In this document: positions 1-62,648 of the stretch, one piece after another | Position numbering within the stretch: the first letter of the stretch is position 1 | Layout: each line of letters begins with the position of its first letter | From: Chrysaora quinquecirrha | Lineage: Eukaryota; Cnidaria; Scyphozoa; Semaeostomeae; Pelagiidae | Direction: 5' to 3' | DNA: 64,000 nucleotides | NCBI GenBank assembly: GCA_014526335.1 | Contig: JACTAT010000291.1 | Span: forward strand, 464,404-528,403 | Position numbers and translations under genes: made by a program | Notes under the pieces: model-generated | Told to the model about the DNA's origin: nothing | Databases searched by the model: none | Seen by the model: only the letters and a program-made list of their open reading frames with translations

Positions 1-504
1 CCATTTTCTGGTCCTACTTTCATGCAATTTGGGTTGTTTCTTATGATGATAGAAATATTTTAAGCTTCGGGGCCACCCAGATTTTTTATTTTGGTGACCA
101 TAATGGCAGATTTTTCAATTAAGCCCCCCCGCCAATAGGCAAAATTATTTTTGTCTTCTAACCCCAACAAATTATATATCATTCGATTCGAAATTTGATG
201 CTGATCAAACTTTAATAAAAGAATTATATCTGAAATCAAGCTATCTCGAGATATTGAGCAATTTCGTTTTCATAATTCAGGGGGTATAGCATTTTTTCGA
301 ATTAGTTTTAACAACGGCTTTGAAAACTACAGGTTTGATGCATGAAATTTTATCGTTTGGGTCAAAGAGCCTGGTTGAAGAATGGAATATATTTTATTTC
401 TTTTTACTGAGACCCGTACAATATTTTTCGAAGTTAAGCTGAATGCATCCCTTGACAAGTATTTGAAAACCTTTTCGTTCAATAAAATAAGTCTGCTCAT
501 CCTA

Positions 505-1390
505 GATGCTTAACCGGCTTTTCTCGACCAATACGAGCCTGTTTTTTTCGACCAATATAGGCCCGCCTCCATGCTTTGCTGGCTTTTCTCGACCAAAATG
601 GGCCAGTGTCGATGCTTAGCCGCCGGCTTTTCTCGACCAATACCTGTTTTTCGAGCCCGCCTGCTTTTCTCGACCAATTTTGGCCCGCCTCGATGCTTAG
701 CCGCTGGCTTTTCTCGACCAAATATGAGCCCGTCTTTCTCGACCAATATAGGCCCGCCTCCATGCTTTGCTGGCTTTTCTCGACCAAATTTTTTCTCGAC
801 CAATATAGGCCCGCCTCCATGTTTTGGCTTTTCTCGAGTTATATGGGCCACCTCGATGCTTAGCTCCGGCTTTTCTCGAATTTTTTTCTCGACCAATATA
901 CGGCCAGCCTGGCCTTATGACTATGGGCCAGCTTTTCTCGACCAATACCGGACGTCCTCGATTTGGCCAAAATGGCGTTTCTCGACCAATATAGGCCCGC
1001 CTCCTTTTCTCGATGGGCCAGTTCGATGCTGGCTTTTCTCGACCAATACGAGCCCGCCGACCAATCCCGCCTCATGGCTTTTCTCGACAAATACGGGCCA
1101 ATGTCGATGCTTAGTTGCTTTTTCTCGACCAGTACGGGCTGCCTCGATGCCTAGTCGGCTTTTCTCAACTAATGCAGGGCTGCCTCTATGGTTAGGACAA
1201 TTTTATCAACACACACGGCCATTTTTCACGTCCCATACGGGGCTGCCTTGATGTTTTGCCAGCTTTTTTCAATGTATACGGAGCCATCTCGTTGCTTAAC
1301 TTAACCTGTATTCCTCAAGTTATACGGGCCAGCCTCGACTGCCAACATTTCCCGACCAATATGTGCCATCCACGATGCATGGCCGGGATT
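505..1390 (+). repeat. Left-arm minisatellite of FB1 (~40-45 bp unit)
   Basis: More than 15 imperfect units of the form TTTTCTCGACCAATAxGGGCC plus GCCTCGATGCTTAGC. Units vary in length, and the array decays towards 1390. It mirrors 2725-3205. Confidence 0.8.
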
Positions 1391-1799
1391 CTTTAAAACA
1401 TACGGGCCAGCCTGTCATTTTATTTAATATTATTTAAACAGAAATAACCTTTCAGCTAAAATATACGACCGTTAAAAGAAACTTCTATTCACAATAACAA
1501 AAATCTTAAGAGCGATTGCTACATACTTTCCTGCTAAACCTAATCATGCTGTTCTTCCAATTAGAGTTTGTTTCTGTCTTGCTCGTAATATATGTTTTGA
1601 TTTGTTTTTTGACACGATCTAATGCTGTAAGGGCAACCAATTTCTCTGGGTGAATCATTCCAGGTCTTCAGAGCTGTGCAGTGAAAGCCTTTTTAGCGTC
1701 ATGAAAGCATTTGTTCTTATATATAGGGATTTGGAGATCTTTGCAGTGCCTCGTTATACGGGCTAGTAGAAAGATCTCAATTGGTGTTTATCCAAAAGT

Positions 1800-2660
1800 C
1801 TTTCAGGGTTAGTTTGTTCACAATCTTGTATGTCAGACATTCCTGTTAAAACCGAACAGATTTCATACATTTAACCAGAAAGTTGACTGTGTTGCGTTTG
1901 CTATTATTGCGTATGCCCGATTTTGAAGACGTTGCAGAGCAGCGAGTTTGGCATTTGACAGACTACTCCAGATAACATCGGCATAACGCAGGTGACTCTC
2001 AATTAATGCACAATACATAATAAATAATTGGGATTGTGGAACGACGTCTTTCAGTTTGTTTAGAGCTGCAAGGCATCGAGGCACAAATGTTGCCACTTGG
2101 CGCGCTTAAACTGTTCGTCCAAGTTAAATTTTCATCCACAATCACTCTGAGGAATTTAGTCTTTTCGACTCTTTTAATATCAGAGTTACTCAATTTAAGC
2201 ACTTCTGACAGGTGGAGATTCTTTTTGTGGCCGTCCTATGATCATGAACTAAGCTTTTCTGGGATTAGGGCTAAGTTTTTACCCTCGTCCACTCAGCGAG
2301 ATTAGAAGGCTGTTGATGTGCGTCCGCAACAAGTTTCGCGGCATGATTCGATGCAATCGTCATACTGGTGTGGTAAGCATAAATTACGAAAAGATTAGGG
2401 ACTAAACAAGAACCTTGAGGAATACCACACATGACTTCTTTGGCTTTCGAATTCTGACCGTTCAGTTCAGAGCGCAAAAACTGTTTTCTGCTATTCAGGT
2501 AGGATTTAAGTCAATCTCCAGCTTTGCGTCTTATTCCATATGCACCTAATTTTGTGAGTAATACTGTATATCGTGATCGACTGTATAGAATGCTATCTTA
2601 ACGTCGAGAAGAATAGTGAGATTGACATTGCGGCAATCAATGTTTTTGCACCAGAAGTCA
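1800..2660 (-). pseudogene. Degenerate LINE reverse transcriptase fragment inside FB1
   Basis: Minus-strand translation in shifting frames gives successive landmarks of a non-LTR reverse transcriptase. They are LDVKIAFYTVDH near 2620 (the LDxxKAFDTVDH block), GIPQGSCLVPNLFVIY near 2400, and FLRVIVDENLTW near 2150. A C-terminal thumb-like stretch around YCALIESHLRYADVIW follows near 1990. Several frameshifts and stops separate them, so no functional protein is possible. It is the cargo between the two arms of the foldback element. Confidence 0.75.
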
Positions 2661-2724
2661 GAGCTGCTTAAAAGAGATGTTTATTGATTTTTAGGAACTC
2701 AAACAAATGATCTTTCGAGGCAAG

Positions 2725-3205
2725 GCAAGGCATCGAGGATGTCCCCTATTGGTAAAAAACACAGGCTAGGCATGTAGGCTGGGTCATATGGATCGAGAAA
2801 AGTCTGCTAGGCATCGAGGATGGACTGTATGTGTTAAATTCTGGCTGAGCATCGACCCTTGACAGTATAAGTCGAGGAATTCCGGTTAAACGACGAGACT
2901 GCTCCGTATAGATCGAAAAAAGCAGGCCAAGCATTGAGGCAGCCCCGTGTTGGTAAAAAAAAACGGATTAGGCATCGACACTTGCCCGTATGGGTCGAAA
3001 ACGCTGGTTAGGGATAGAGGCCTACCGCGTTGTGTCGATAAAACCAATCCAAGCATTGAGGCAGCCCAGCAATGATCGATAAAAGCAACTAAGGATCCAC
3101 ATTGACCCATATTTGTCGAGAAAAGCCAACAAAGCATGGAGGCGGGCCTATATTTGTCGAGAAAAACGGGCTCGTATTGGTCGAGAAAAGCCGGTTAGGC
3201 ATCAA
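2725..3205 (-). repeat. Right-arm minisatellite of FB1
   Basis: The same unit as 505-1390 but inverted (TCGAGAAAAGCC, CATCGAGGC and GGCCCGTAT motifs). About ten diverged units; the outermost (3110-3200) match the outermost units of the left arm best. Confidence 0.75.
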
Positions 3206-3697
3206 GGATTAGAAAACATATTTTATTGAACGAAAGGTTTCAAGCTACATGTCAAGGGGTGCATTCAGCTTAGCTTCGAAAATTATTCTACGGGTCTCAG
3301 TAAAAAGAAATAGAATATATTCCATTCTTCAACCAGGCTTTTTGACCCAAACGGTAATGTTTCATGCATCAAACCTGTAGTTTCTCAAAGCCATTGTTCT
3401 TCGAAAATACTATACCCCTGAATTATGAAAAAATTGCTAATATCTGGAGATAGCTTGATTTTCAGATATAAGTCTTTTATTAGAGTTTGATCAGCATCAA
3501 ATTTTGAATCGAATGATATATAATTTGTTGGGGTTAGAAGACAAAAAATTTTTGCCTATGGGCAGGGGGAGCTTGATTGAAAAATTTGCCATTTTGGCCA
3601 CCAAAACCAAAAATCTGGGTGGCCCCGAAGCTTAAAATATTTTTATTATCATAAGACACAACCCAGCCCAAATGAAAGTAGGACCAGAAAATGGATA

Positions 3698-4500
3698 AGA
3701 TATTTCTTCTCTGGTACGGGCTATTTGTATCTTTTATCAAAGTTTCATTTTCGCATGTCATTAGATATATGAATTTTTGTTCATTTGTTGGGATCGATTT
3801 AAATTGGGGACATAGATTTTCAATCTTTTCAAGGAAAGTCTTGCGTTCAAAGTTGTAATTTTTACAGGATAACAAAAAGTGTGTTTCATTTTCTACTTCA
3901 TTGCTACAGTATTTGCAGAATCTTTGATCTCTTTCAATGGGGGGTTTCAAGTGTCTCCCCTTTTCAATTGCTAGGCAATGGTCGCTAAGTCTTAATTTTG
4001 AGAAGAATCTTCTACATTTACGATTTTGGATTAAGTATAGATATGGCTCAAAGTAGGTTCGAGTCTTGTATGTCTTATAGGAAAGAGCTTTTGAGCAGCT
4101 GTCAATGTAAGATTTCCAGTATATGTGATATTGATGTTTTAGTACCTTTTTCGTGTTAGTTTTAGAGAGAGATGTTAGAGAGTCTATGGCTAAGCCGTTT
4201 TCTTTTACATCGTTAGTTATTTTATTAATATAAGAGTTTATTGTTTTACGAGAATTAACAGAGTTTTCATATTCAAGTGCTTGAAAAACAAGTGAATCTG
4301 GTTCACAATCGCCTTTAATATGTTTGACAAAATTATTAACTCTACAGTCAATTGCCACGTTTAGAGGGAATCGTCCCATTTCAGCACGGACCAAAGCATT
4401 TGTAGTGGATCTGTTAACACCAAGAATTCTTTTAAGGAATTGGGTGTGCACCTTTTCGATTTCCTGTTTATCCCAATCACTTTGTTTAAAGTTGAAGATG
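3698..4500 (-). pseudogene. LINE ORF2 C-terminal fragment (family L-A)
   Basis: A minus-strand open frame starts at 4451 and runs about 250 codons before reading into the FB1 arm. It contains the hallmark C-terminal block of a non-LTR ORF2: CLAIEKGRHLKPPIERDQRF, then CKYCSNEVENETHFLLSCKNY-like spacing, a CCHC-type zinc knuckle. The upstream part (QFLKRILGVNRSTTNALVRA, GRFPLNVAIDCRVNNFVKHI) is the usual linker after the thumb. EN and RT domains are absent, so the copy is 5'-truncated. The frame diverges from family sequence near 3715, at the FB1 boundary. Relatives lie at 21780-22170 and 28140-28790. Confidence 0.85.
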
Positions 4501-4790
4501 AGATGAGATGGGGCACTTGTACATTGATGAATGCCAAAGCCAGAAATAATGATGACGATGCGTGACGAAGTTGATGGGATATTGATGATTACGTTGACAG
4601 ATGATGATGACCATTATGGTGATGATTATGAAGATTTTGATAACGATAATGATAATAACCACCACTCATTCTTCCTCCTACATAAGCCCTCGTATTCATG
4701 AAGAGGCATAATTTATGCCAAATCTCAAAAATTAAAATAATTGCAAACACAACACGTCATAGAAATTTTTTAATTTTTCAGATCTTCCTC
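4501..4790. other. No gene seen; degenerate GAT-rich sequence
   Basis: Holds an imperfect GATGATGACGATG-type simple repeat (about 4540-4660), probably the microsatellite tail or flank of the LINE, followed by plain AT-rich DNA upstream of the SRA1-like first exon. Confidence 0.5.
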
Positions 4791-4810
4791 TCAGCTGCTT
4801 TTATCGTGAA

Positions 4811-4832
4811 ATGGCGGTGTATGATGGAACTG
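4811..4832 (+). CDS. SRA1: SRA1-like exon 1 (coding part)
   Basis: ATGGCGG start with a purine at -3 and G at +4. It encodes MAVYDGT plus one base, followed by the donor GGTAAGT at 4832-4838. A pyrimidine-rich stretch ending in CAG at 4779-4781 lies just upstream, so this could also be an internal exon with a 5'UTR exon further upstream. Confidence 0.65.
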
Positions 4833-7800
4833 GTAAGTTTTTTTTATTAAACTTTGCGTATTTAACATGGTCCTGTTCTTTGCAATTACCAACCTGTTGA
4901 CCTGGTACCTATTTAATTTCACACTGGGAAATTTTTGTCTCTGGAATCGCTGTTAGTTGAAATCACGTTACATAATTGTGATGATAGGTTACCTTGGGTT
5001 GGCCTATTATGACGACGCAGATTAGGCTTGGCCTAAGTACTATCTACATTTGAGTGGATGTTTCGCTGTTTAGCTTCCCACAAGTCCCGCAGTTTTTATC
5101 TTTGAATCAAGACATCAACAAAAGTTTAAAAGTTATTGGATCTTTCAATTCGCTTTTCGTTCAGTAGTTATCCTTATTCTCCCAATTCAATTCACATACA
5201 TCTGGCAAAACCAGTTGATGATCATCATTAGGTACCTATTATGCCCTATGTAGGCTACACTTACCTTCAGCTGTTAGGTCTACAAAACGACTTTTGGGAG
5301 ACAATAAGAGGTAAAAAAATTAGCTGTTAACAAACTTCAACATGTAAAACATGACAACGAACAATTTCTTTACAACAAGAAAGAGTATAAGCTTGGTTTT
5401 TTGACTTCTTAGTTGCTTACAGTAATTCAATTGAGCCCTGAAGTTGCTTCAAGGATTATTCTTATTAGTTGCCAGGCAGGCTCCAATCCACGTACTTAAG
5501 CCTGAAGATCTTTAGTGTGTAGAACGATTTTGTTATCATAATTGGCGTGAGAGTCTTAAAATAAAAATAGAAATTGGCATGAGATTTCTAGAAAATTAAA
5601 AATTTTGTTGTTTTCTGGCAAACAGTATATGTCAATACTGTTTGGTGTAACCTTTGGCATCAGGTTTCATGGAATGCACCATGGATTAGTTGTGAAGTAA
5701 AAGGTTCTTAATACAGCTTCACACTACTCCTAAATCGAAAGTCGAATATACATTTGTCGTAGGTGTTATTTTGCTTTTTGATATTTGGATATCAGGGCCT
5801 GCCACCCACAAACCCCCACTGTACAGTGTGTATGTTTTTATTGGAAAACTTGCCTGTATAGTTGCAAACTGTTCTAGGAGCAGTGCGAAACTGTAGTGCA
5901 AACGAAATACTAACAGTTGATTTATCCTTGAGGTGCTCTACAAGTTAAAATTAGAAGGTGAATATGAAATGAAAAAAAATAAGGAAAATTTAACTGTAAA
6001 CTTTCAATGAAGCTTGCATTTTAAACAGAACATAAAAATAATGTATATAATAATCTTTGATTTTATTTTTCATTGTGATGCAAAACCGAATATTTTCTTA
6101 GAGGTTTTAGAAAAGTTAACTTAAAGTTATAGAATCTATTCATGGTGATGATTTTTAACCTTGTATCTAAGATTTTATTTGAATTTCTTTTTTTAACAAT
6201 TGTAGACAGCCCTGGCTCACTGAATGTCTTGGCATACAATGTTTGCTTGTATTTTTATGTTTGAAGAATTCAAACATTATGCAGGGGTTTTCGGCAAACC
6301 GGAAGAAATAGACCTAGATAGATAGATAGATAGATAGATACCTAGATACCTAGGAATCAGGAATGTTGTAACAATAAGATCGGAATTTCTATTCTCTATG
6401 TAGGAATTTCTATTCTCTATGTGCACAATGAAAACAATCGTTTCATTGAACCACTGAGTTCCCTATTGTTCTGCCTCTGTACTCAGCCTCATAAACAAAT
6501 TTAATGAATGACTCCCGCCCTGCTGTACCTAGAAACGCGTTTCTTTTTTTGAACGAAGCCTTTTATGCCCAAAAAGTGCAAGCCGTATTATTCTAAATGT
6601 TTTTGGTCCTGCAATGTGGTCAAAATTTTGATTTGCTCTTGATTTTGAAGGGTTTGGTTTCATTGCGGACATATATTGTTTGTTGAACTCAACCAATTGT
6701 GTTCCTTTGTTCTACCAAAGTTGTTTACCACTCAATTACAAGCCACTTGCGTAAAAGCAATTTGTCTATGTATCTCTAAAAGCTGGAACAAAGAATGAAG
6801 TCAGGAACGATCTGGAAACAGTGGTTTTCGGCGGAACGTGCGAGAACGGAGGGGAATAAGTGCGAACACGCACAAGGAAACATGTAGATAAAGCGGAATC
6901 AGTGGCAATTATTGCTAACAGGAGAAAACAACGATGGTTAGGCGGTTAGGGAACAATGTCGGATCTGATAGAAATCAGATTTGTGTGCCGATGGGGTACA
7001 GCTGGATTTGGATTCAGTTAGAATCAGGTTAAAAATGCGAGGACAGGGCCGAAATTTGTTGCAACTCTATTCTGTTCATTGCAATCTCCTAGGCGTGATC
7101 TCATTCTTCAAACATGGCTAATGGGTACCTTTAATTCAAACAGCAAATAAAGCAGTTCCCCATAATTTCAGTCAAGTGCACCATGCCACAACAAACAAAA
7201 GGATGGAAATAGATACTCTGTCTCAACATGGACCAAGCTTGCTGACACCTGCAACAATGCCAGGGCCCCTTTCTCAGCCTGTGGTTACTGGATCTAGTCA
7301 TGTTCAAAGTCATCACCTGGTTCATGCATCAAGTATGCCAAATTTGCAAGAATTCGGGAACAGAATTACCCCTCAAATCACACCAGACATTTCTCAAGGA
7401 CAGAGCATTTCAACACAATACAGTGTTAGCGGTAGTGCTATTAATCCACTAGTAACGCCAGGATATCACACTTCACCAATTACAAAAGGGGAATCATCAA
7501 TAAGCCAAAGTAGTCAAGGTTTATCTACTTTTCAACAAGGCAATGCAACAACATCTCATGTAGGACAGCCACTTTTCTACTTTTCCTCTCAACAATCACA
7601 TCCCGCTGTGGCAAATGCTGTTTCAGCAGTGACAAATGATTTGAGATCAAGTGCGGAAATATCTTTATCTGGAAATACTGGAGAAACTATAAAGCATTTT
7701 GAACATGGAGCTCCAAAGGTAGAGTCAGTCATTCATCAATATGCAGCTGAAGGACATGATCATGGACATCATGTTCGGAGTACTTCAATGCCAAATTTTA

Positions 7801-10469
7801 ACGAAGTGAAAGATCCAGGGCAAAGCATGATTGCCCCACCAGTAGAAGGCTATTATACAAAAAGAGCATCATCCGCCTGCTCTTCAAGACAAAGGACACC
7901 ATCTCCTTTGGCTGAGAAAAAGCTAGAAACAACTGCATATGGTGAACAGGATGATGCTCAGATGTTAAGAGATACTATAGACAAGTTTGAATCTATAATG
8001 GAAAAATTTTCTTTTGTCTCTGATGTGAAATTACTTGAAGATGTCAGAAAGCGAATCAGCATTTTTAACCAAAGTTGGATTGAAGGGAAGCTTTCCCCAA
8101 AAGTTAAGTCAAAAATGGTGGAATTATCGTCAGGTAAGCATCCCAAGAACATGCATTTCTAATCTAATTTCTTTTATGTTCATTCATAATTGATTTAAAA
8201 TTTCAATTAGTCCAAAGCCCTGTCATCACTAACAAAAAATTCCAAATATGTCCAACATTGGGCTAAGTTGCTACTCAGTCTTGCTATACTGATTGGTTAT
8301 AATTTGATGAACTTTTGCCATCTCAGAAGTGCATGATTTCTCTGATGTTGGGTTTGAAAGCTTGAATGCATTTAATTGCTCAATTTGTGCTATGCCACCA
8401 GCTTCTAATCTTCTTACAAAGCTTAAACTACATATGCCTTATTCTATGTGCCTCAGGATTCTTGCTAAAGCCACAGCTGCATGTGGAACTTCTTGCTTGA
8501 AATGGCAACAGGACAGGTAAAAAAATTGTCTCCATGGTCAAAAAAACTAATTGTTCTTCAGCCTGAGGTGCAGTCTTAGAACACTGGTTTGTCACCTAAA
8601 ATGTTGCAGCGACCTATTTTTCTTGTCATGCAAGTTGACTGTTGCAGAACTAGTGCTGCATCATTTTTGTTGGAGCATGTAGCCAGCTCAGGATTTCTCA
8701 GAACAGAAAATTTCAATGTGTTTTTGTCATCAGAATAGATGATAAATTGTACTTGTAGCTGTGGGCTAAGCAAAACCCGCATTCAAAACATGTTTATGTC
8801 ATACCCTCCTGGTCTTCATGAATGAAAATTTGAAAAAGCTTTATGGAGACCAACCTCAATCCTGTGGTGACTCTGAAATTACTGACTGCACTAACTTGTA
8901 CACAGAAAAGAAACTGTAGCCGCATCTTCTTTCAGCAACTATTTAGACTATGTGGCTGGCTAGCATTTACTGCAATAGCATTATTAACCTTGATTGTGTG
9001 AGCAGATAAGTATATGCAAAATTGTGTCCATTGAGGCGAAATTCCAATGCTGATTGCTGACTCTTGCTTGGTCACATTGTCGGCACAAATTTGGGAAAAA
9101 TAGTCGCTGTGCTCTATTCATAATACTGCTGTGTGGTTTCTCCAGGCGTGATCCAGCGAGAACTGCTTTCTTGAACAAAGAAACGGAGTCAGAAACAGGC
9201 TTTCGTCAAAGAGCTTTCGACAATTTTCGAACTTCACTGAACTTAAATTTTCTAGCTATTTACATGTATATAAAGTAAAAACAAGGAAATAAAAATTACG
9301 TTGGTGCAAATTAGATTTGATCGTAACAAGAAAGGCTTGGCTGCTCGAGATAAAAACGCAAAGGAAGAAATTTGCATTTATTAGTAGAAGGTCGTCTGAA
9401 GGTACTATTAAAACAAATGTACTCTTTAAGATCACTTACGACTTTGCCTGAGATCACAAACCTGTGGTAGCTGACATTTGCTTAGAGCTGAAGAGTAACA
9501 CAAAGAGAAATCAACAACCTCAACTTGACTTGGAGAAATTGAAAACTGGTAGTCTACTACAACACCAATACAAGGTGGAGAGATGAAGCAGAGTCAGGAA
9601 AAAGTTACGGTCACACGGTCATTGACCGGAGGAAGGTCCATTAGAACAATAGAAAATATTTTGCCACACCCAAAACACGCCTATTTTTCATTGTTAAGTG
9701 AGGAAGGTTCAAGCTATGGGTATTTTTGTCTGGAGGAAGGTTGAACACTTTTCTGGACTCTGAGATGAAGAATCGATATAAAGTACTAGCAACTGTCAAA
9801 TCAGAACAAAAGATGATTGGGAAACTTTCAAGGAGGCAATTTCGCATGATGAATGAGAGAATAGAAGTAAAGAACAAAAATACTGATAGATATAGAGAAC
9901 TGAACGAGACGATCAGGAATATGCGTACAGAAGCTAAAGAGAAATGGTGGAATGATCAATTTAGAGAAATACGTACAGCAAAATCCATCCTTAGCTCAGA
10001 AGAGAGTAACGAAAGCGATAAAGAAGAAATTACGTATTAAGAAAAGAATGGTAATATGCTAATGAATAAAGACGATGTACTAAACAGATGGTCTGATTAC
10101 GACTGTAGAGGAGAAAACCTGTGATAAATAAAGATGTGAATGGTCCATCAATTAAAAATAGCAACGCTGTAGCAATGTCCGAAGGACGCTGATGATGATG
10201 ATAATAACGATGAAGATGATGATAATAATGACGAAGATGACGAAGAAGAAGACAACGATGATGAGAATGATGATTATGTTGATGGCGATGACGATGATGA
10301 TGATGATGATGATGATGATAATGATGATGATAATGATGATGATGATACGTTGATCACGTTGAAGATGACAATGATGATCACCGTCTTCAACATGATCATC
10401 ATCGTATTCAACATGATCATCATCTTCTTCAACAATGATGATCATGTTGAAGACGATGACTGGTGATTG

Positions 10470-10518
<49 letters not shown>

Positions 10519-13500
10519 CCATTATGATGATGATGCGAATGATGACAATGATGATCAGATGAACCTTTCCTGGAAGAATCCCAAAACTTTGAATCGAAAA
10601 TAGAAAATCTGTAGTTACGTATACTGTACTAATAAATTCGAACTCATGGGTTAAACTGTGTATGTAACAAATAAATCCGTTCAGTGCACCGAAACCTGTA
10701 ATCTTCGTTTCAAATGATGAATTAAATTCTAGAACCTTCAAAAGCTATCATAAGAATTCGCATACTATGCAGATGACTATATTCGATCATTAGTAGCACT
10801 TAGAAGAATTGATTGCCAACTTTGAGTCATTCATTTTCAGATGATTCTCGAAGCCGCAAAACTGTTTTGAAAAAATTCTTCTGTCTAACTTGGCCACAAT
10901 TTCTACTGCGCCACAATCTCCTCCTCTCTTCACACGAAAATATCTTACACCTGAGACGACTTCTAGAAACTTCTGACAATAACAACCCAATCAAAATTGT
11001 ATGAAAATATTTCAAAATAAAAAATCAAATCAAATTAGATTCGAGCAACATTTTGCAATATTGTGGTCAAACCTTTTTTCGAAGCTCGACCGAGCCGGCT
11101 TTTTTGCGAGAAAATCATGGTGTCAAATTTTTAGTTTCGAAAATCTTGATGTTAGAATGTTCCTGCATCGTGGATCGAACTCACAACCCTTAGCCTAAGA
11201 AACAAGCGCATTATTCCACTACGCTACACTGACAATTGATACTTATTGATCTTTCTGGCAAGCAATTGCATTTTGTTAATGATGCCCACTAACGACAACG
11301 CTTACGGCGACTTCAAAGTTTACTCCCTATTATTTGTGGTTTATCTTTTGTTACGTTTTGGCACGAAAAAGCGTCTATATGCCTATCTATCTATCTACCT
11401 AACTATTTTTATGTCCGAAGGACATATTAAGAGGGTGTTTTGGAACGCATGTATGCATAGATTAAAGGTACCCATTAGCCATGTTTGAAGAATGAGATCA
11501 ACCCAAATCAGCCCAGATCAGCCTATTAGCTAGCAGCTTGCAAGGGATAGTTTACAAAAGTCCCAACTTTGTTCCTACTTGTTCCCTGTGATCCTAGCTG
11601 TTTCAGGCTTTGTTCCTGCTTTTCCTCGCGATCGTCATTGATCCCTTTTAGTTTCAACTTGTACTTCGTTCCCATTTGTTCCCTCCGATTTTAAGTTATT
11701 TCCATTCCGTTTCATCATGTTTTACTGGTTCCGTCCAGGTCCGTTTATTCCGAGTCATTCCAGGGGTTCCCACCTCTATTGCTTGTTCCACATTTTATCG
11801 CATTCTGGATAATGAATTCCTAATGGCTTTGTTGTTAAAATTGAAGCCAATTTGGACAGGAAATAGATTCTTGGCATCATTCTCTCCAGATTGTTTCGAT
11901 TGTTTGCATTTACAATGCAATTAATCTTTATGAAATTCCTGCTGGATTGTCTGATTGTTCAAAGTAAGAATAGAAATTCCTATCTTTTGTTACAAAAATT
12001 CCTTTCACATTACGGGGGTTATTGCGCAAAAAGATTTAATATTTTCGTACTAATCACCACAAAATTTCCTCCATAACATGTTTTTTTATGAAATCGCGAT
12101 TTTTGAAGTGATTAGTATGGGAAAACGTTGAAAATTTGCATGCAACGGGGGTAATGCTGGAATTCAGAATGCCCCTATCATGTTTGAATTCTTCAAACAT
12201 AAAAATAGGTAGGTACATAGATAGGCATATAGACGCTTTTTGCTGCCAAAACGTAACAAAAGATAAATCGCAAATAATAGGAAGTAAACTTTGAAGTCGC
12301 CGTAAGTGTTGTCGTTAGTGGGCATCATTAACAAAATGCAATTGCTTGCCAAAGACATCAATAAGTATCAATTGTCAGTGTAGCGTAGTGGAATAATGCG
12401 CTTGTTTGTTTCTTGGGCTAAGGGTTGTGAGTTCGATCCACGATGCAGGAACATTCTAACATCAAGATTTCCGAAACTAAAAATTTGACACCATGATTTT
12501 CTCGCAAAAAAGCCGGCTCGGTCGAGCTTCAAAAAAAGGTTTGACTACAATATTGCAAAATGTTGCTCGAATCTAATTTGATTTGACTTTTTATTTTGAA
12601 ATAGTTTCATACAATTTTGATTGGGTTGTTATTGTCAGAAGTTTCTGGAAGTCGTCTCAGGTGTAAGATATTTTCGTGTGAAGAGAGGAGGAGATTGTGG
12701 CGCAGTAGAAATAGTGGCCAAGTTAAGCAGAAGAATTTTTTTCAAATTAAACAGTTAAACAGAAGAATTTTTTTGCGGCTTCGAGAATCATCTGAAAATG
12801 AATGACTCAAAGTTTGCAATCAATTCTTCTAAGTGCTACTAATGATCGAATATAGTCATCTGTATAGTATGCGAATTCCTATGATAGCTTTTGAAGGTTC
12901 TAGAATTTAATTCATCATTTGAAACGAAGATTACAGGTTTCGGTGCACTGAACGGATTTATTTGTTACATACACAGTTTAACCGATGAGTTCGAATTTAT
13001 TAGTACAGTAACTACATAATTTCTATTTTCGATTCAAAGTTTTGGGATTCTTCCAGGAAAGGTTCACCTGATCATCAATGTCATCATTCGCATTATCATC
13101 ATAATGGATCACCATCATCATCATCATCATTACCACCACCAGTCATCGTCTTCAACATGATCATCATTGTTTAAGAACATAATGATCGTGTTGAAGACGA
13201 TGATGATCATGTTGAAGACGGTGATCATCATTGTCGTCTTCAACGTGATCAATGTATCATCATCATCATTATCATCATCATCATCATCATCATTGTCATC
13301 GCCATCAACATAATCATCATTCTCATCATTGTTGTCTTCTTCTTCGTCATCTTCGTCATTATTATCATCATCTTCATCGTTATTATCATCATCATCAGCG
13401 TCCTTCGGACATTGCTACAGCGTTGCTATTTTCTATCTATACATGCGTTCCACGACACCCTCTTAATATGTCCTTCGGACATAAAAATGGAAAAGCTATA

Positions 13501-33070: not shown

Positions 33071-33733
33071 GGCTATCTCGAAAATAGTGAACGGGGAACG
33101 GGGAATGGGGAACGGGGGGTGGAAAACGAGGAACAGGGAATGGGAATTAAGGAATTTGAAATTGACTCTTTCTATCAATGTATTTTGGTGCGAGAGTTGC
33201 TAGATTGCAATGCGTACTCACTGTAAAGAAATTTGCGCTGACTTTTAAGGTACAGTTCTGTTGGAGACCTGTCTTTATGAAATCCTCTTTAATATTGTGA
33301 AATATGCAGTCTGCCACATGAAGTTTGCCATATCAAGGTGTTTCTATATATTTTATGATGAGAGTTTTGTTGAATGTTTTATGATTTTTCTTTCTGGTTT
33401 TTGCTGTGAAGCTAGGAATCAGAAGCCTACAAGATGCAACGATCAAAACATACTGAATCGAAAACAAAAATAACCTGTCTTTCTTCTCTAGTTTAGTTTT
33501 TTCCGCCTCTGCATATTTCACAATATTAAAGAGGATTTCATAAAGACAGGTCTCCAACAGAACTGTACCTTTACAGTAAGCGCAAATTTGTTTACAGTGA
33601 GTGCGCATTTCAATCTAGCAACTCTCGCACCAAAATACATTGGTAGAATGAGTCAATTTCGAAGTCGCAATTTCCCATTCCCCGTTCTTCGTTCCCCATT
33701 CCCCGTTCCCCGTTCACTATTTTCGAGATGGCC
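33071..33733. mobile_element. Foldback element FB2 with GGGGAAC minisatellite arms
   Basis: Left arm starts GGCTATCTCGAAAATAGTGA, then AACGGGGAACGGGGAATGGG repeats. The right arm is its reverse complement, ending CGAGATGGCC at 33733. The inner arm (GGAGACCTGTCTTTATGAAA at 33270) is inverted at ~33550. Flanks CTGTGTGAG (33062-33070) and CTCTCTGAG (33734-33742) agree at 7 of 9 positions, as expected for an aged 9-bp target duplication. Confidence 0.7.
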
Positions 33734-37095: not shown

Positions 37096-37414
37096 GAGCC
37101 TCGTTTCCAAAATAATTGAAAATCGCCTCACAGAAACATTTCGACTTAAGATTCGAATTCAGCACCTTTGTTTTACTATTGAGGCAAATTTTTACGCCTC
37201 TAGTTCTTACAAGAGAGGTACTTCGGGGGGGTCCCAATACCGCAATACCGCGCAAAAAAATCGCCGAATCCCGAATACCGAACGAAAAAGTTGCAAAATA
37301 CCGCAAAATCCTGAAAAATAAAAATATCAGTATTGTTTATGAGATTATGACACAGACCATCAGTGTATAAGAACTTGAATCCATCTGAAACGCACTTGTC
37401 CCATTTCTCCTGTC

Positions 37415-37505
37415 ACGGCCAGGATCGAGGTCTCGATTAGTTAACTTACTACTGAGATCCTAGCGACTGGCGCTAAAACATCAATTCACCTTCACCTTCA
37501 TCTTT
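37415..37505 (+). mobile_element. SINE body without tRNA head
   Basis: GATCGAGGTCTCGATTAGTT, TACTACTGAGATCCTAGCGA and CTGGCGCTAAAACATC, with a CACCTTCACCTTCA tail, nearly identical to 16818-16900. Confidence 0.7.
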
Positions 37506-38054
37506 CGTGATTCCACAGACACAATTCCTTATTGGCTGTTCAGAGTTAGAATAAAATTCGGTTCAAACCGAATCATGTTCCCATTGTATCCACCGGCAAC
37601 GCTTCATAGAGGTAGCCCAGTTGCTAAAAAGTGACGCTCATTCTTGCATTTTGGAAGTAATTCTTATTCAATTAGCTTGGGGATCGCAAACGTAAACAAC
37701 ACTGCCAAATTCAAGGACTAGTGACATTTTCTTCCTGGCCTTTTTTTATCAAAAAAGAACAACTTCGAGTCCAAAAAGTATCGCATGCGCGACAAAGCTT
37801 TTCCCACAATTGCCTGAATAACTTGAAGAAGTTCTGTGAGTATAAAGACGGCGTCTTTACATAATTGATTCAGTGTGTGAGTCGAAAGCTGGCGGGATAT
37901 CCAAGTGTAAGCAAATGGTCTGGGGCCGGATAGTCCCTCCCCTGGCTGGCCGAAGATTCACGGGAGAATAGCGATTTCCTGTAATGGGAACCACCATAAG
38001 ATGCGGCGCTTCAGCCACATTGCCTCGGCATTGTGGATGCAAGTGGGGAGCATT

Positions 38055-38377
38055 CAGAGGCGTAGTAGGGTATTGAAAAGTGAGGGGGCACATGAAAAAG
38101 AGGCAATATTGAGAGCAAGTACGCCGAAGGCGCACCTTCTTAGAGGAGTCCGGGGGCATGCACCCCCGGAAAATTTTGAATATAGAAGCAGCTACTTTGG
38201 CTCTTGTAGCCTCTTTCGGACTAATTATATAAACATATTTCCAAGGCAGTTGATGGTCCTACTTAGCCTTTCAAGGTGTAAGGAAGGGGCACTTCAGATA
38301 TAAAAGGGGCAGGCATAAGATTTGGCAGAAAAGTGGGAGGGCACGTGCCCCCTGGCCCCCCGGCTCCTACGCCACTG
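38055..38377. mobile_element. hAT-type MITE, copy 1
   Basis: Ends CAGAGGCGTAG and CTACGCCACTG are imperfect inverted repeats. They are flanked by a perfect 8-bp duplication GGAGCATT (38047-38054 and 38378-38385), the hAT signature. 323 bp, no transposase. A second copy lies at 46172-46503. Confidence 0.9.
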
Positions 38378-38599
38378 GGAGCATTCATCTCCAGCACTGA
38401 GCAATGTTTTTGCTTTTCACGCCATTTTGATTTACTACAAATAGACTCAATACATGCACGAAATGCATGACAGCAACTGCAACAACAGTGCCGCAAACAA
38501 ACAAATTTACAAAATTCCAATTTGTGCAAGAATTTAATGCTGCAACGCAGGCCCTTCGCGCAGCTCCGCAGCAACAAGGTACACTGATGCTACAGCTGG

Positions 38600-38850
38600 C
38601 GGTAAATGCGCCGACGGCGTACAGGACCCGGACCCCGACCTCAGAGATGTTCCTAATAAGGGGGTCTGGGAGCATGCTCCCGTAGAAAATTTTTCAAAAT
38701 ACAACCTCGAGATTGGCCCAGATTGGCTTTTCTTGGCAGTTTTCTTTTGAGAGGAGATTGTACTAGGGGGCAGCTTTATGAAACTAGGTGGGCAATGATA
38801 GGGGCTAGGGGGAATTTGCCCCTCTAGCTTCCTAGTTACTAGAGGCCTTG
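38600..38850. repeat. Diverged MITE-like sequence
   Basis: GGGGGTCTGGGAGCATGCTC and the following GTAGAAAATTTTT resemble the interior of the hAT MITE (GGGGGCATGC, GGAAAATTTTGAA), suggesting an older relative. No ends were identified. Confidence 0.35.
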
Positions 38851-38884
38851 CTGTCTGCATATGTGTAACTTGTACAGAAAATTG

Positions 38885-39125
38885 TTAAGTCGTGCAATCA
38901 AAATGTAAAATTGCGTAACAACATTGCAAAGTCGTGCAATCAAATGTAAAGTTGTGCAACCAAATATAGCGTTGTGCCATTAACACGTGAAATCGCGCAA
39001 CAAATTGCAAAGTCGTGCAATCAAAATGTAAAATCACGCAGCAAAATTGCAAAGTCGTGCAACCAAAATGAAAGTCGTGCAAAAAATATGCTATGTCATG
39101 CAGTAAAAACATAGAATCGTGCAGA
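38885..39125 (+). repeat. Short minisatellite, GTCGTGCAA/TAAAATCG units
   Basis: Repeated AAAGTCGTGCAATCAAAATG and AAATCGCGCAACAAA, about 18-20 bp per half unit, ~12 half units, imperfect. Lies inside FB3. Confidence 0.75.
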
Positions 39126-39799
39126 AAAATTTCACAAATTTCTGTCAAAAAATCATTTTCTGGCCGGTTTGGTGCGCCGAAACAATGGTTGAATTCACAA
39201 TTCAATACATAAACCTATATCGTCATTTCGACTTCTTTTCATGTAGCTATTGGTCTCTGGTAAATTTAAGTTTCCCTTCAGCTACTGTATGGCTTTTTAA
39301 CTGTTTCTTTAAACGTTCGTAAAATGCTAAATACCGCACTGTAAAAGTTCAATACCGCAACACCGCAAGGATTTTCCGTCAATACCGCAATACCGCGCAT
39401 ATTTTACCCACGATACCGCAGTACCGCAAACCCCGAAGTACCCCTCTTACAATGTTGATTTTATAGCAATTAAAATTTTGAACATTTGTAAGGGATTTGA
39501 CGGTGAAAAATGATCGAGGGTGCTAAGTTTCACCCCGAGCCATTTTTCACGGTCAATCCTTTTATAAATTTTCGTACTTTTAATAACTTTAAAATCGACA
39601 TCGTAGGGACTAGACGTAAAAAATTCACTCAACACTAAAATTAAGGTGCTGAATCTGATTCTGGGTTCAAAATTTTCGTAGAAACAAATTTTCGTAAATT
39701 TTGAAAACGAGGCTCTTAATTGAAAAGGTGTCTATGATGCCGAATTTCTAAATTGTAATAGTTTCTTAATGTTTTTTTCATTTCTTGTTTCATAGTGAT

Positions 39800-41744: not shown

Positions 41745-41761
41745 TTTTTGACTCATTTTAG

Positions 41762-45726: not shown

Positions 45727-46169
45727 GGGGCCTATTATAGGGGTCCAGAAGCCGCGAAACCGCAAAAAATTTAGCTTAAAGCCGCAATCCGCGATGAAAT
45801 TAATCGCCAAGCCGCGGCCGCTATTGTTTAGCCTTCCACTCCTCCTCATTAACATCAGCTTGTCAATCGACATTAATCCGGTTACTTAGTTACTTCCCTG
45901 GTTACTGTACGCAACCATTACATTTTCTAGCGGCACAGAGCCCTTTTCAGCCCGTCTGTTCTGAAATTCAGAATATAGCCGCTGGCCGTTTATTCGATAA
46001 AAAGCCGCAGCCGCATTCACAAAGCCGTAAACCGAGGCCAAAACACAGCGAAAGACGCAAGCCGCAACTTTTTCTGAGGCCGCAAACCGTAGCAAAATCA
46101 TTGCCAAATCCGTAAACCGCACGAAAAAAGGGGTCGAAGCCGCGAAGCCGCAAACCTATAATAGGCCCC
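45727..46169. mobile_element. Foldback element FB4 with AAGCCGC minisatellite
   Basis: The left end GGGGCCTATTATAGG is inverted at the right end (CCTATAATAGGCCCC, to 46169). Both arms continue as GCCGCGAAACCGCAAA-type repeats. It sits exactly between the end of the 71-bp array and hAT MITE copy 2. No clear target duplication. Confidence 0.75.
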
Positions 46170-46171
46170 CT

Positions 46172-46503
46172 CAGAGGCGTAGGAGGGTATTGAAAAGTGG
46201 GGGGCACATGAAAAAAGGGGCAATATAGAGAGCAAGTGCGCGGAAGGCGCACCCTCCTAGGGGGGCGGGGGCATGCTCCCCGGAAAATTTTGAATATAGA
46301 AGTAGCTACTTTGGCTCTTGTAGCCTCTTTCGGACTAAAATTCTTAATTATATAAACATATTTCCAAGGCAGTTGGTTGTCCTACGTAGCCTTTCAAGGT
46401 GTAAGGAAGGGGCACTTTTCAGATATAAAAGGGGCAGGCATAAGATTTGGCAGAAAAGTGGGAGGGCACGTGCCCCCTGGCCCCCCCAGCTCCTACGCCA
46501 CTG
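46172..46503. mobile_element. hAT-type MITE, copy 2
   Basis: 332 bp, direct-orientation copy of 38055-38377 with the same ends. The 8-bp flanks (GGCCCCCT and TGGATGAA) do not match, so the left flank was probably replaced by FB4 or rearranged. On the right it breaks the copia integrase frame. Confidence 0.85.
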
Positions 46504-49695: not shown

Positions 49696-50032
49696 TTTAA
49701 CTTGACGCCCGCGATGCGGGCAAACTTCTTTGACACCCGCGATGCGGGTGAGTTTCTATGACACCCGCGATGCGGGTGAATATTAATACCAGTTTAGCCT
49801 TGGAAAGACAAGATACCACTCAGCTGCCTTTTAACTTGCTGCCTTTTAACACAGCCTTCTGAACTTTCGCTAGAGTCCGGGAGGTTAGCTCCCATGGCAT
49901 CCCACAACCTCCCGGACTCTGGCGAAAGTTCAGAAGGCTGTAAAAGTTAAAAGGCAAAAACAAATATTCACCCGCATCGCGGGTGTCAAGTAAAACAAAA
50001 AAGCTCGCCCGCATCGCGGGCGTCAAGTTAAA
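49696..50032. mobile_element. Foldback element FB5, palindromes within a palindrome
   Basis: The left end TTTAACTTGACGCCCGCGAT is inverted at the right end (GCGGGCGTCAAGTTAAA). Each arm carries two or three CCCGC(G)ATGCGGG-type units that are themselves palindromic. The centre AGCCTTCTGAACTTTCGC and AGAGTCCGGGAGGTT are also inverted (49853-49945). 337 bp; the whole sequence can fold into one hairpin. No open frame of interest. Confidence 0.8.
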
Positions 50033-50409: not shown

Positions 50410-50725
50410 TACTAATCACCCGGGGTAATGTCTGTGCAGTACAGTGGAGGTTGTTCAGTGCAGTGGAGGGATAACATGATGCATGTGGGGGGATAACATC
50501 AGTACAGTGGAGGCTGTTCAGTACTGTGGAGGGATAACATCAGTACAGTGGAGGGATAACATGATGCGTTTTGGGGATAACATTGAGTACAGTGGAGGCT
50601 GTTTAGTACCCTGGAGGGATGACATCAGCACAGTGGAGGGATAACATGATGCTTGTGGAGGGATAACATCGGTACAGTGGAGGCTGTTCAGTACAGTGGG
50701 GGGATAACATCAGTGGAGGTTATAG
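50410..50725 (+). repeat. Minisatellite, GTACAGTGGAGGGATAACAT units
   Basis: About 10 imperfect units of AGTACAGTGGAGG followed by CTGTTC or GATAACATCA/GATGC. No coding potential. Confidence 0.8.
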
Positions 50726-51542: not shown

Positions 51543-51548
51543 TTTATT
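51543..51548 (-). terminator. RPS23 poly(A) signal
   Basis: AATAAA on the minus strand 17 nt after the stop codon, giving the very short 3'UTR usual for ribosomal protein genes. Confidence 0.75.
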
Positions 51549-51564
51549 TATAACTCAAATATTT

Positions 51565-56242
<4,678 letters not shown>

Positions 56243-56276
56243 ACTTCGGCTCACGCTCTAACACGCTGTAAAATTT

Positions 56277-56283
56277 AGAAAGG
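56277..56283 (-). promoter_or_regulatory. Candidate 5'TOP start of RPS23
   Basis: CCTTTCT on the minus strand 35-41 nt before the ATG. A C followed by pyrimidines at the cap is the translational control signal of ribosomal protein mRNAs. The start site itself is inferred. Confidence 0.45.
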
Positions 56284-56289
56284 ACTCAC

Positions 56290-57845: not shown

Positions 57846-57847
57846 AA

Positions 57848-57887
57848 TGGAGAACATGTTCATATCGTTGCTTACCCTTATAATCGG
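57848..57887 (+). CDS. STIM1: STIM exon 1 (signal peptide)
   Basis: AACAATGG context, 13 codons plus one base, phase 1. Hydrophobic core FISLLTLIIVV once joined to exon 2. Confidence 0.8.
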
Positions 57888-60329: not shown

Positions 60330-60545
60330 CTGAGCCCATTGTCAAATTAAATGACATTGAAGGAATGAGATTTTCTTTGAGTCGTAAAATATTTCAAAAT
60401 TGCAGAATAAGGCAGAAACGTCTTAAGCTTCTTTTTACTGACATTCTTCAAAGAATAAACGTCAGAAACAGACCGAAACGATTGATTACAGTAAGACGGA
60501 ATTAATAACAAGATGCAGATCTCATTTTGCAATGCATGGAGTGTC
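60330..60545 (+). repeat. Interspersed repeat shared with 52440-52720
   Basis: TGACATTCTTCAAAGAATAA, then ACGTCAGAAACAGACCGAAA and CAAGATGCAGATCTCATTTT; see the partner copy in RPS23 intron 2. Ends not defined. Confidence 0.55.
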
Positions 60546-60607
60546 AAACAATAGAAGGTTATGTCAAATTATGTTTCCGTTTTTATGTCCGAAGGACATA
60601 TTAAGAG

Positions 60608-62648
60608 GGCATACCGGAAAAGCGGGACCCGGGACCCTAGGTGGGACCCAGCGGGACCCGGGACCCTAAGTGGGACCCTAGACGTGGGACCCTGGTGGGA
60701 CCCGGGACCCTAGGTGGGACCCTAGACGTGGGACCCTGGTGGGACCCGGGACCCTAGGTGGGACCCTAGGCGTGGGACCCTGGTGGGACCCGGGACCCTA
60801 GGTGGGACCCTGGGCGTGGGACCCTGGTGGGACCGGGACCCTAGGTGGGACCCTAGACGTGGGACCCTAGGTGGGACCCGGGACCCTAGGTGGGACCCTA
60901 GACGTGGGACCCTGGTGGGACCCGGGACCCTAGGTGGGACCCTAAACGTGGGACCCTAGGTGGGACCCTAGGTTGGATCCTGAACGTAGGCATTGAGCAA
61001 TCAATAAAAAGATTGCAACGATGATCTTTTGCATCAAAAGTGCAACAAAAATGAGAGCAAGTTGTGAATTAATTTTCTTATAATGTTTTTCGTTCTCCAT
61101 AAATTTTCATCTCGTTGGTCATCGATGGCTTAGGCCTTTGCTTTACAGAAACTTCAGCTGAACATGGAAGCGTTTCAAAAATAGGTTTCCAAATATTAAT
61201 TCCAGTTTCAGTCGCAGCAGACATTGGACTGGAACTCGGACGAATTGAAGTGCGAATTTTGTCTTCAATTTGTTCACTGAAACTGATGTTCGCGTGTACG
61301 CGGGACAACTTGCTTCGTGTCTCCCATTTTTGTTGCACTTTTGATGCAAAAGATCATCGTTGCAATCTTTTTATTGATTGCTCAATGCCTACGTTCAGGA
61401 TCCAACCTAGGGTCCCACCTAGGGTCCCACGTCTAGGGTCCCACCTAGGGTCCCGGCTCCCACCAGGGTCCCACGTCAAACATCCATGAAGCAATAAAAT
61501 CACTGTCATTATATCTAATTGGCATTGTTCCTTGTCTGTGGAATGCGTAAACAGTATCACGCGAACGGAAGAGTGCCTGCAACACAGAAATTCTAAGGAA
61601 AATGGAAACAACGAGGCAGTAAAGTCCACGGCATATTGCTGTAAGTGGCTTCGGAGTGGGAAAATGAAAGAAATAACAACTGCGGCAACTGAAATTGGAG
61701 TTGATGTTTCAAAATTAATTTTTGAAACGAAGAGCGCTGCAATGTTCTGATGAAGTTGTTATAAACGACAAAGGCTTAGGCCACCGATTAATCGATGACC
61801 ACAACGAACGAGGGAAGACTAGGATAATTTATGGAATTTATTTTGAAAAAACTAAAGATTTGTAGAAAAATAGCAAGAAAAACATTATAAAAAATTTATC
61901 CCTATGTATTATTCGTATATTATAGAGGTTTCCATCTCAAATTTAGTGGCTGGACTTGAAATTTTGATAGAGGCCTACTGAAAGTTGTTACTTGTGGGCT
62001 GTAGCACGTTGCCAATATTGTATGATTTGTATGTCCCAAGAACAAGATTCAGATTCGAGGCCAGAACAAGATTCAGATTCGATTACTTTGAAATTTGTCT
62101 TGTTAAGCTTCTTGACGCAATTTTTCTTGATTTCTCTTGAATATATCGTCAATTTTGGCTTCGCACACCTCTAGCTTGGAAATTTTTCTCCCTTTGCCCA
62201 CAATTGCACCTAAATGTCCGTCATGTGCAAGAACTCACTCTATGTTTCTCATTTTGGTTACACTGTTGGCTTAGTAGGTTATCATTCCAATTTTTTGTCT
62301 GTTGTTCAATGATTTGTGTCGATTGTTCAAAGGTCCCACTTAGGGTCCCACGTCTAGGGTCCCACCTAGGGTCCCGGGTCCCACCAGGGTCCCACGTCTA
62401 GGGTCCCACCTAGGGTCCCGGGTCCCACCTAGGGTCCCACGTCTAGGGTCCCACCTAGGGTCCCGGGTCCCACCAGGGTCCCACGTCTAGGGTCCCACCT
62501 AGGGTCCCGGGTCCCACCAGGGTCCCACGTCTAGGGTCCCACCTAGGGTCCCAGGTCCCACCAGGGTCCCACGTCTAGGGTCCCACTTAGGGTCCCGGGT
62601 CCCGCTGGGTCCCACCTAGGGTCCCGGGTCCCGCTTTTCCGGTATGCC
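60608..62648. mobile_element. Foldback element FB6 with GGGACCCTAGGT minisatellite arms and 9-bp TSD
   Basis: The left end GGCATACCGGAAAAGCGGGA is exactly inverted at the right end. Arms are GTGGGACCC/GGGACCCTAGGTG/TAGAC repeats: 60625-60975 and 62330-62635, plus a short internal block 61405-61480. Flanks TATTAAGAG at 60599-60607 and 62649-62657 are a perfect 9-bp duplication of sequence in host element D. Nothing resembling a transposase. The core carries two inverted, diverged copies of a coding-like segment (61080-61340 and 61560-61800). Confidence 0.92.
61080..61800. pseudogene. Inverted pair of coding-like segments inside FB6
   Basis: Minus strand 61338-61078 includes MSAATETGINIWKPIFETLP and KQRPKPSMTNEMK. 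Plus strand 61532-61750 includes TTAATEIGVDVSKLIFETKS. The two translations are clearly related, while the DNA copies are inverted and diverged. Beside the first pair, ATTGCAACGATGATCTTTTG (61011) is inverted at ~61340-61370. The source gene is not recognised; capture of a host or transposon exon is possible. Confidence 0.5.

Follow-up and report, generated by a model that had tools for sequence, protein, structure and literature searches.

Short tandem arrays at transposon ends in a 64-kb window of a jellyfish genome point to at least two unrelated groups of elements

Introduction

Mutator-like (MULE) transposons with minisatellite arms are already known. In the portions of the literature used here, this applies to Muta1–14, which are MULE families of Aedes aegypti and include the "type 2 foldback" Muta1 (PMC5225508), and to Tm1, a Mutator/foldback family of root-knot nematodes (PMC3169594). 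Foldback-like terminal inverted repeats (TIRs) are found in different superfamilies (PMC4079207, PMC3573991, PMC3688188), and the repeats of Galileo bind the Galileo transposase (PMC3573991, PMC3688188). MULEs have also been reported from cnidarians, with a Ghost sub-group (PMC6446971).

We analyzed a 64,000-nucleotide stretch of Chrysaora quinquecirrha DNA (the window), in which a sequence-only reading had proposed six foldback elements, FB1 to FB6, sharing one architecture with inverted arms made of short tandem repeats. Repeats were indeed present at or near all six coordinates, but unrelated repeat families are mixed and a common architecture was not found. Inverted array arms were recovered for FB6, FB2, FB5, and FB1, whereas the arrays of FB3 and FB4 are direct. 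Very probably, the TIR transposons of the window that have terminal short tandem arrays fall into two or more groups of separate origin, i.e., the putative MULE foldbacks FB6 and FB2 on the one hand and FB3 and FB4 on the other, plus repeats of neither group.

Results

FB6 is bounded by identical TIRs (GGCATACCGGAAAAGCGGGACC), and its arms are built of 12-bp/44-bp GGGACCCTAGGT repeats. The unit GGGACCCT occurs 23 times on the plus and never on the minus strand in the left arm, and 0 and 24 times, respectively, in the right arm. The features of the element and its target are as follows.

60608..62648, unstranded: FB6, non-autonomous foldback element, arms 97% inverted
60599..60607, plus strand: left 9-bp duplication TATTAAGAG, 9/9
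62649..62657, plus strand: right 9-bp duplication TATTAAGAG, 9/9
61321..61477, minus strand: extra inverted piece of left arm and adjoining core, 98% to 60901-61057
11402..11470, plus strand: paralogue of the FB6 target with the site empty, a copy of repeat X in which TATTAAGAG occurs once
near 13426-13487, minus strand, and 34042-34106, plus strand: further empty-site copies of repeat X

The extra inverted piece indicates that FB6 is internally rearranged. The flanking duplication is perfect, as had been claimed, and its left flank is equalled by only 4 of the 63,991 9-mers of the window. Together with the TIRs, the inverted minisatellite arms, and the sister copies of the host repeat in which the site is empty, this bears out FB6 as a foldback element.

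Allowing up to three mismatches, we found 325 matches (165 + 160) to the FB6 end in the 328-Mb genome, and none for the control. Among 15 elements of the family (14 fetched pairs and FB6 itself), 11 carried a perfect 9/9 duplication, which lies within the 8–11 bp expected of MULE targets; the duplication was absent in four pairs (C147, C150, C173, and the second C2 pair). Swapped flanks never matched in more than 7/9 positions among 210 combinations. About 30 pairs of FB6-type ends were visible in the genome, and besides the large copy described below, four of them (C246, C302, C365, and C343) measure 9.7–10.6 kb.

The one large copy of the family that was read, C290, spans 10,607 bp and is flanked by a 9/9 duplication. 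Its outer 15 bp are identical to those of FB6 (21/22 over the pattern, one mismatch), and its arms are likewise 97% inverted, but they are made of a 13-bp unit, GGGACCCTAAGGT, instead of the 12-bp unit of FB6. The copy codes for a protein kinase and also contains a MULE-type transposase ORF, whose coding parts are spread over several frames. The transposase protein matched the MULE domain PF10551 with an E-value of 0.0079, which by itself is below the Pfam cut-off, and IS256 with 1.1e-4. Three of its 70 homologues have the PF10551 label in the database, and five of six scanned homologues matched PF10551, one of them over the cut-off. Residues D137, D206, H224, C227, and H230 were invariant across eight sequences; a third catalytic residue was not located in the C290 transposase. 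Pfam scans of the partial C290 ORFs at E 0.01 listed neither FLYWCH nor a PHD finger. The genome holds 59 MULE-domain matches; none of them falls within C290, and inspection by eye placed none within the FB6 pairs listed. In one copy, a MULE/IS256-type DDE transposase is combined with FB6-type ends, which answers the earlier suggestion to search for an autonomous partner with the same termini; C290 is likely the self-mobile (autonomous) relative of FB6. The constant outer 15 bp behind a changed array would fit recognition of the termini rather than of the arm sequence, which, with the fold as the other option, had been proposed for all six structures; this idea agrees with FB6 and C290, not with the whole set.

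FB2 is a second foldback family and shares with FB6 the presence of inverted tandem-repeat arms.

33071..33733, unstranded: FB2, short foldback element, 242-nt arms 87%

Its arms consist of GGGGAAC repeats (plus/minus counts of 3/0 in the left and 0/4 in the right arm), followed by approximately 150 bp of unique inverted repeat, and the TIR reads GGC(T/C)ATCTCGAAAATAG. The ends matched the genome 54 times (30 + 24; control 0). The 7/9 duplication noted earlier does exist, but it is weak by itself, being equalled by 101 of the 63,991 window 9-mers, and convincing only through relatives. In six flank pairs from copies read at their ends, the match was 10/10 in two, 9/10 in one, 8/10 in one, 8/9 in one, whose flanks resemble those of the window copy, and 6/9 in one. 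The 9–10-bp duplications of this family likewise fall within the 8–11 bp of MULEs.

FB3 and FB4 behaved differently from FB6 and FB2.

37213..39446, unstranded: FB3, corrected limits, family GAGGGGTACTTCGGGG, own TIR GAGAGGTACTTCGGGG
37207..37212, plus strand: left 6-bp duplication TTACAA
39447..39452, plus strand: right 6-bp duplication TTACAA
45727..46169, unstranded: FB4, 443 bp, TIR GGGGCCTATTATAGG, direct GAAGCCGC-type arrays

The 8/9 match to a 9-bp duplication previously described for FB3 was a misreading of the 6-bp TTACAA on both sides. The subterminal arrays of FB3 are asymmetric, and the left and right ends carry their 8-mers, which are of the AATACCGC type, in one and the same orientation. 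In plus/minus counts, FB3 has 3/0 and 7/0 units and FB4 has 5/1 and 7/0; the GCGG arrays are thus direct at both ends, and only the 15–16-bp TIRs are inverted. In the genome, left-type ends of the FB3 family pair inverted with right-type ends. Same-strand arrays and this pairing rule out FB3 and FB4 as foldbacks. Controls for the end matches of FB6, FB2, FB3, and FB4 were 0, except for the right end of FB3 (8).

A 6/6 duplication was present in all ten fetched FB3 relatives, as in FB3 itself; the registers, extended by two bases for FB3 and by one base for FB4, were picked after the flanks had been seen, and the outermost two FB3-type bases are TA, not GA, in C113. The right-type end of FB4 matched the genome 145 + 164 times (control 0), fetched copies were mostly 438–457 bp long, and the best relatives matched at 96% along the entire element. 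The partner end was present in 9 of 12 fetched copies, with a 6/6 duplication in five, 7/7 in two, and neither in two; one duplication (L110) is a run of T, and swapped flanks matched in at most 5 positions (n = 72). The window copy of FB4 lacks a duplication (flank match 0/6 and 1/7). An assignment to MULEs by an 8–11-bp duplication was rejected, given 6 bp in the FB3 family and 6–7 bp in 7/9 FB4 copies. The earlier statement that arm sequences differ completely does not apply to this pair: the left arms have GGGGTCC and two 8-mers in common (4 of 20,000 shuffles as good), with a weaker likeness between the right arms (251 of 20,000). The termini of FB3 and FB4 match those of FB6 and FB2 at 4–5 of 14 positions. 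A 7.6-kb copy of the FB3 family encodes a protein without a clear Pfam domain that has coral relatives and, by eye, Cys-rich and PDCPH stretches. Among the pairs of FB3-type ends, C507:28580-36161 has exactly the same length as the copy C430.

The remaining structures were placed in neither group.

49697..50031, unstranded: FB5, palindromic arrays of CCCGCGATGCGGG with TTAAC at either end, 653 + 677 genome matches (control 0)
1..3728, unstranded: FB1, truncated at the edge of the window, ~40-bp repeats in its long inverted arms

FB5 contains 3/0 and 0/2 units by arm (plus/minus), the unit itself being nearly palindromic. Its proposed limits are not element ends, since one outside flank, AAGTAGACTAGCTT, is conserved in 9/9 copies compared, with at most one difference by eye; the dispersed repeat unit to which FB5 belongs is larger. 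The conservation outside TTAA on one side in these copies also speaks against a piggyBac/Kolobok-type TTAA element. FB1, formerly placed at 1-3697 with an 11-bp unit, starts outside the window and ends near 3728. Its arms align inverted at 88%, an outer unique TIR of about 500 bp encloses the ~40-bp repeats, and the core holds a reverse transcriptase remnant. Two further structures had been overlooked, i.e., a long inverted repeat whose arms are (TGA)n (10155-13432) and 69/71-bp satellite arrays forming an inverted pair (35383-36725 / 41761-45726).

Discussion

Multi-copy dispersal, termini, duplication lengths, and coding copies are the demonstrated part of our explanation. FB6 and FB2 would be members of the MULE superfamily, both of them non-autonomous foldbacks. 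FB6 would depend on a MULE-type transposase, supplied from elsewhere in the genome, that cuts at the constant outer ~15–22 bp and inserts the element into staggered 9-bp targets; we infer that FB2 relies on an enzyme of the MULE type, and likewise that these elements are mobilized by the encoded proteins. The inverted minisatellite arms would be subterminal repeats and probably offer multiple transposase binding sites, for which Galileo provides a precedent (PMC3688188), and the arm unit may change through repeat turnover. FB3 and FB4 would form the second group, characterized by 15–16-bp TIRs, asymmetric ends, same-direction GCGG arrays, and 6–7-bp duplications. This duplication length calls for a transposase other than that of the first group, and the best candidate is the cnidarian-type protein of the 7.6-kb FB3-family copy. 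A swap of the array unit between FB3 (AATACCGC) and FB4 (GAAGCCGC) with the CCGC core and layout kept, a pattern that co-evolution of a DNA-binding domain with its repeated site would produce, is a tentative and rather unlikely reading.

A single transposase that mobilizes all six structures by reading termini or fold instead of arm sequence, as originally envisaged, is highly improbable. The FB2 and FB6 termini do agree in 9/14 positions (one of 15 pairs tested; P = 0.0028 when compared with random 14-mers of the window, and 0.021 with those starting with GG), and the two families make duplications of 9–10 and 9 bp, respectively. The 6–7-bp duplications of FB3 and FB4 contradict such an enzyme, as do their direct arrays, their dissimilar termini, and the false boundaries of FB5. 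Equally hard to credit is that satellites were inverted and duplicated locally by replication or repair, without transposition. Large inverted satellite arrays do lie beside FB3 and FB4, one array end adjoins the duplication-less FB4, and FB3 and FB4 lack the consistent 9-bp duplications whose absence had been proposed as a sign of local origin. However, the ends of FB6, FB2, FB3, and FB4 recur across the genome in numbers from tens to hundreds, with target duplications and in dispersed, TIR-bounded families, and FB6 has an empty-site paralogue.

Duplication length alone is indecisive as to whether FB2, and perhaps FB6, belongs outside the MULEs in another superfamily with 9-bp duplications, for example Merlin (8–9 bp). 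The FB2 family is known here from its ends, without a coding partner, and the MULE match of the FB6 partner is weak by itself. Nevertheless, with the MULE/IS256-like protein of the 10.6-kb copy, its MULE-matching homologues, and the MULE-domain matches in the genome, we regard this alternative as improbable, and MULE membership of FB6 and FB2 as the preferred reading.

At least two transposition systems with unlike target-duplication lengths thus stand behind minisatellite arms in one 64-kb window, and private minisatellite arms are no marker of a single transposon type. In the same genome, a foldback family whose ends match 325 times is joined by a candidate autonomous partner and shows differing arm units behind a near-constant terminus. 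Whether the tandem arms are binding sites or mere passengers thereby becomes testable by arm swap. Through FB3 and FB4, a transposase type so far absent from Pfam may come to light.

Regarding known systems, as described in the portions of the papers used here, Dada shares 6–7-bp duplications with FB3 and FB4, and its D-x-x-H motif may be set beside the Cys-rich and PDCPH stretches of the FB3-family protein (PMC3706591). Dada-U6 and Dada-U1 have no TIRs and target small RNA genes, whereas the 15–16-bp TIRs and varied targets and duplications of FB3 and FB4 argue against Dada elements (PMC3706591). Tetris (PMC4079207) and Galileo (PMC3573991, PMC3688188) resemble FB6 in that tandem repeats lie inside their foldback TIRs; Galileo, however, is a P-superfamily element, unlike the MULE-type FB6 (PMC3573991, PMC3688188), and Tetris differs in its ~220-bp units and, in that portion of its description, the lack of a known transposase (PMC4079207). 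MULE-related Rehavkus has a 9-bp duplication and a minisatellite near one end, but it is reported to carry a PHD finger and to have the minisatellite before the 3' TIR, whereas FB6 has arms on both sides (PMC6446971). Tm1 resembles the FB6 family in composite TIRs containing 13–15-bp repeats, in 9-bp duplications, and in a MULE transposase, which in Tm1 is Phantom-like and present in some copies; its outer 7-bp motifs are asymmetric, whereas the FB6 ends are identical (PMC3169594). Muta differs in host and unit sequences, and the FB6 family has longer arms with 12–13-bp units and a 10.6-kb partner with a kinase ORF (PMC5225508). As in the window, Muta comprises several MULE families in one genome, with 8–9-bp duplications, non-autonomous derivatives that have unrelated cores, and a short terminal motif followed by an array; short (9–15 bp) subterminal tandem repeats like those of FB6 are found in 10 of 12 long-TIR Muta families (PMC5225508).

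Insertion and genomic family of FB6

FB6 (60608-62648), which has identical ends and arms matching at 97% in inverted orientation, is flanked on either side by TATTAAGAG and resides in a dispersed repeat, X. The locus reads ...ACATATTAAGAG-[FB6]-TATTAAGAGGGTGT..., whereas other copies of X in the window read ...GTCCGAAGGACATATTAAGAGGGTGT... with a single TATTAAGAG.

Copies of repeat X lacking FB6
11402 onward: single TATTAAGAG
34042 onward: single TATTAAGAG
13487 downward: single TATTAAGAG

The target site is thus seen empty in these paralogous copies. FB6 is an inserted transposon, and the 9-bp flanking duplication proposed by the sequence-only reading was confirmed. Part of the left arm, with some neighbouring core, recurs in inverted orientation at 61321-61477 (98%), and diverged inverted homology links the two core parts; FB6 has thus been rearranged internally.

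The 22-bp end of FB6 matched the genome 165 times in forward and 160 times in reverse orientation (≤3 mismatches), and a reversed-pattern control yielded 0 and 0; about 30 plus/minus pairs were visible among the places printed. Both ends of 14 fetched pairs were compared along with FB6 itself. A perfect 9-bp duplication was present in 11 of these 15 elements, the remaining four scoring 2, 6, 1, and 2, while 210 swapped flank combinations scored at most 7.

One family member, on contig C290, is a candidate self-mobile partner. This copy, the one read from end to end, comprises 10,607 bp and has GGCATACCGGAAAAGTGGGACC at start and end. Its 351-bp arms consist of GGGACCCTAAGGT and match at 97% in inverted orientation, and its flanks show a 9/9 duplication. 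Four further printed end pairs measure 9.7-10.6 kb. Its MULE-like protein matched the MULE domain with an E-value of 0.0079, under the Pfam cut-off, and IS256 with 1.1e-4. Seventy homologues were found, and PF10551 was matched by five of the six scanned, one exceeding the cut-off. Residues invariant in an alignment of eight sequences (the protein and homologues) include D121, D137, D206, H224, C227, and H230, of which D137 and D206 are taken, judged by position, as the first two catalytic residues. The same element codes for a protein kinase (PF00069, 9e-21; 1198-3236 of the fetched stretch L045), either a captured host gene or the element's own. The genome holds at least 59 MULE-domain matches (150 of 164 candidates scored), none inside the C290 copy nor, by eye, inside other printed FB6 pairs; the tie between family and enzyme therefore rests on this one copy.

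The FB2 family

The end of FB2 (33071-33733) matched 30 + 24 times (control, 0). Among six fetched pairs, flanking duplications scored 10/10 on contigs C631 and C58, 9/10 on C379, 8/10 on C14, 6/9 on C202, and 8/9 on C324. The C324 flanks match those of FB2 in the window, so the two probably descend, by duplication, from a single insertion. The family makes 9-10-bp duplications. FB2 and FB6 termini agree at 9/14 positions, which, after 15 comparisons, is only suggestive.

FB3 and FB4

The arrays of FB3 and FB4 had been described as inverted, but counting units by strand revealed the same direction at both ends. Aligned inward from the TIR, the left arms agree at 21/36 positions (equalled in 4 of 20,000 shuffles) and the right arms, more weakly, at 17/36 (251 of 20,000). 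Right-type ends of FB3 matched 69 + 55 times (control, 2 + 6) and left-type ends 38 + 47 times (control, 0). In pairs matched by eye, a right-type end stands opposite a left-type end 0.3-10 kb away; the family's ends are thus asymmetric. All ten fetched copies have a 6-bp duplication outside the TIR GAGGGGTACTTCGGGG (TA replaces GA in the C113 copy), in a register picked once the flanks had been seen; swapped flanks gave ≤4/6. With limits shifted to 37213-39446, FB3 itself is flanked by TTACAA on each side, and the 8/9 duplication reported earlier had counted in the last two bases of the TIR and a mismatch. An hAT-type MITE with CAGAGGCGTAG ends lies inside FB3 (38057-38377; 8-bp GGAGCATT on each side). 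A second copy (46171-46503), without duplication, adjoins a truncated copia element.

Right-type ends of FB4 (45727-46169) matched 145 + 164 times (control, 0). A partner end lay within the stretch in 9 of 12 fetched copies, seven of which span 438-457 bp. Duplications among the nine were 6/6 in five (one a run of T), 7/7 in two, and neither in two. FB4 in the window, between a satellite array (left) and an hAT-type MITE copy (right), has no flanking duplication. The duplication lengths of FB3/FB4 differ from those of FB6/FB2, which means that the transposases differ too; a joint mobiliser for all elements was therefore rejected.

FB5 and FB1

The FB5 (49697-50031) end pattern matched 653 + 677 times (control, 0). 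One outside flank is conserved in all nine copies compared (eight fetched plus FB5), so the TTAA ends are not those of the element, which leaves it without an assignable duplication. A tandem GTGGAGGGATAACAT-type array lies beside it (50433-50714).

FB1 (1-3728) continues beyond the window's left edge, and its arms recur at 91% in a second copy. Within the FB1 core lies a remnant of a reverse transcriptase (RVT_1, E 0.0076, under cut-off). A LINE-like ORF recognised by eye (3537-4613, no Pfam match) reaches from outside into the right TIR; FB1 thus appears to be inserted in a LINE.

Genomic setting

The window corresponds to C292:464404-528403 in an assembly of 328 Mb and 740 contigs. Within it lie an exon of an S12/S23 ribosomal protein gene, reverse transcriptase ORFs of copia and LINE type, and an ORF (7122-8162) whose 11 listed homologues carry PF07304 and which we take to be SEC31. 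Homologues of the proteins analysed include cnidarian names (Rhopilema, Hydractinia, Paramuricea, Actinostola, and Desmophyllum), which point to a cnidarian as the probable host. A long inverted repeat (10155-13432; 91% across ~1.27 kb), with (TGA)n arrays outermost and a tRNA-like stretch seen by eye, has partial copies at 34042-35099 and 62649-63964. A ~69/71-bp satellite (35383-36725 and 41761-45726, in inverted orientation) flanks FB3 and a 190-bp satellite. An unbiased scan returned a 174-bp element (9589-9762) with CAGAGTC ends and AGATGAAG on each side (8/8), possibly another hAT-type MITE.

Comparison with published elements

The FB2-family duplications fall in the 8-11-bp range stated for MULEs in PMC6446971, which also reports cnidarian MULEs of the Ghost sub-group. 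A literature search, mostly at heading level, recognised no cnidarian foldback case. PMC5225508 describes many MULE families (Muta) within one Aedes genome, the majority of which carry private subterminal repeats of 9-15 bp and make duplications of 8-9 bp; PMC3169594 describes 9-bp duplications and a Phantom-like transposase for Tm1, and foldback-like TIRs occur in several superfamilies (PMC3169594; PMC3688188). Given these precedents, FB6 and FB2 are therefore newly found examples of an already known element type.
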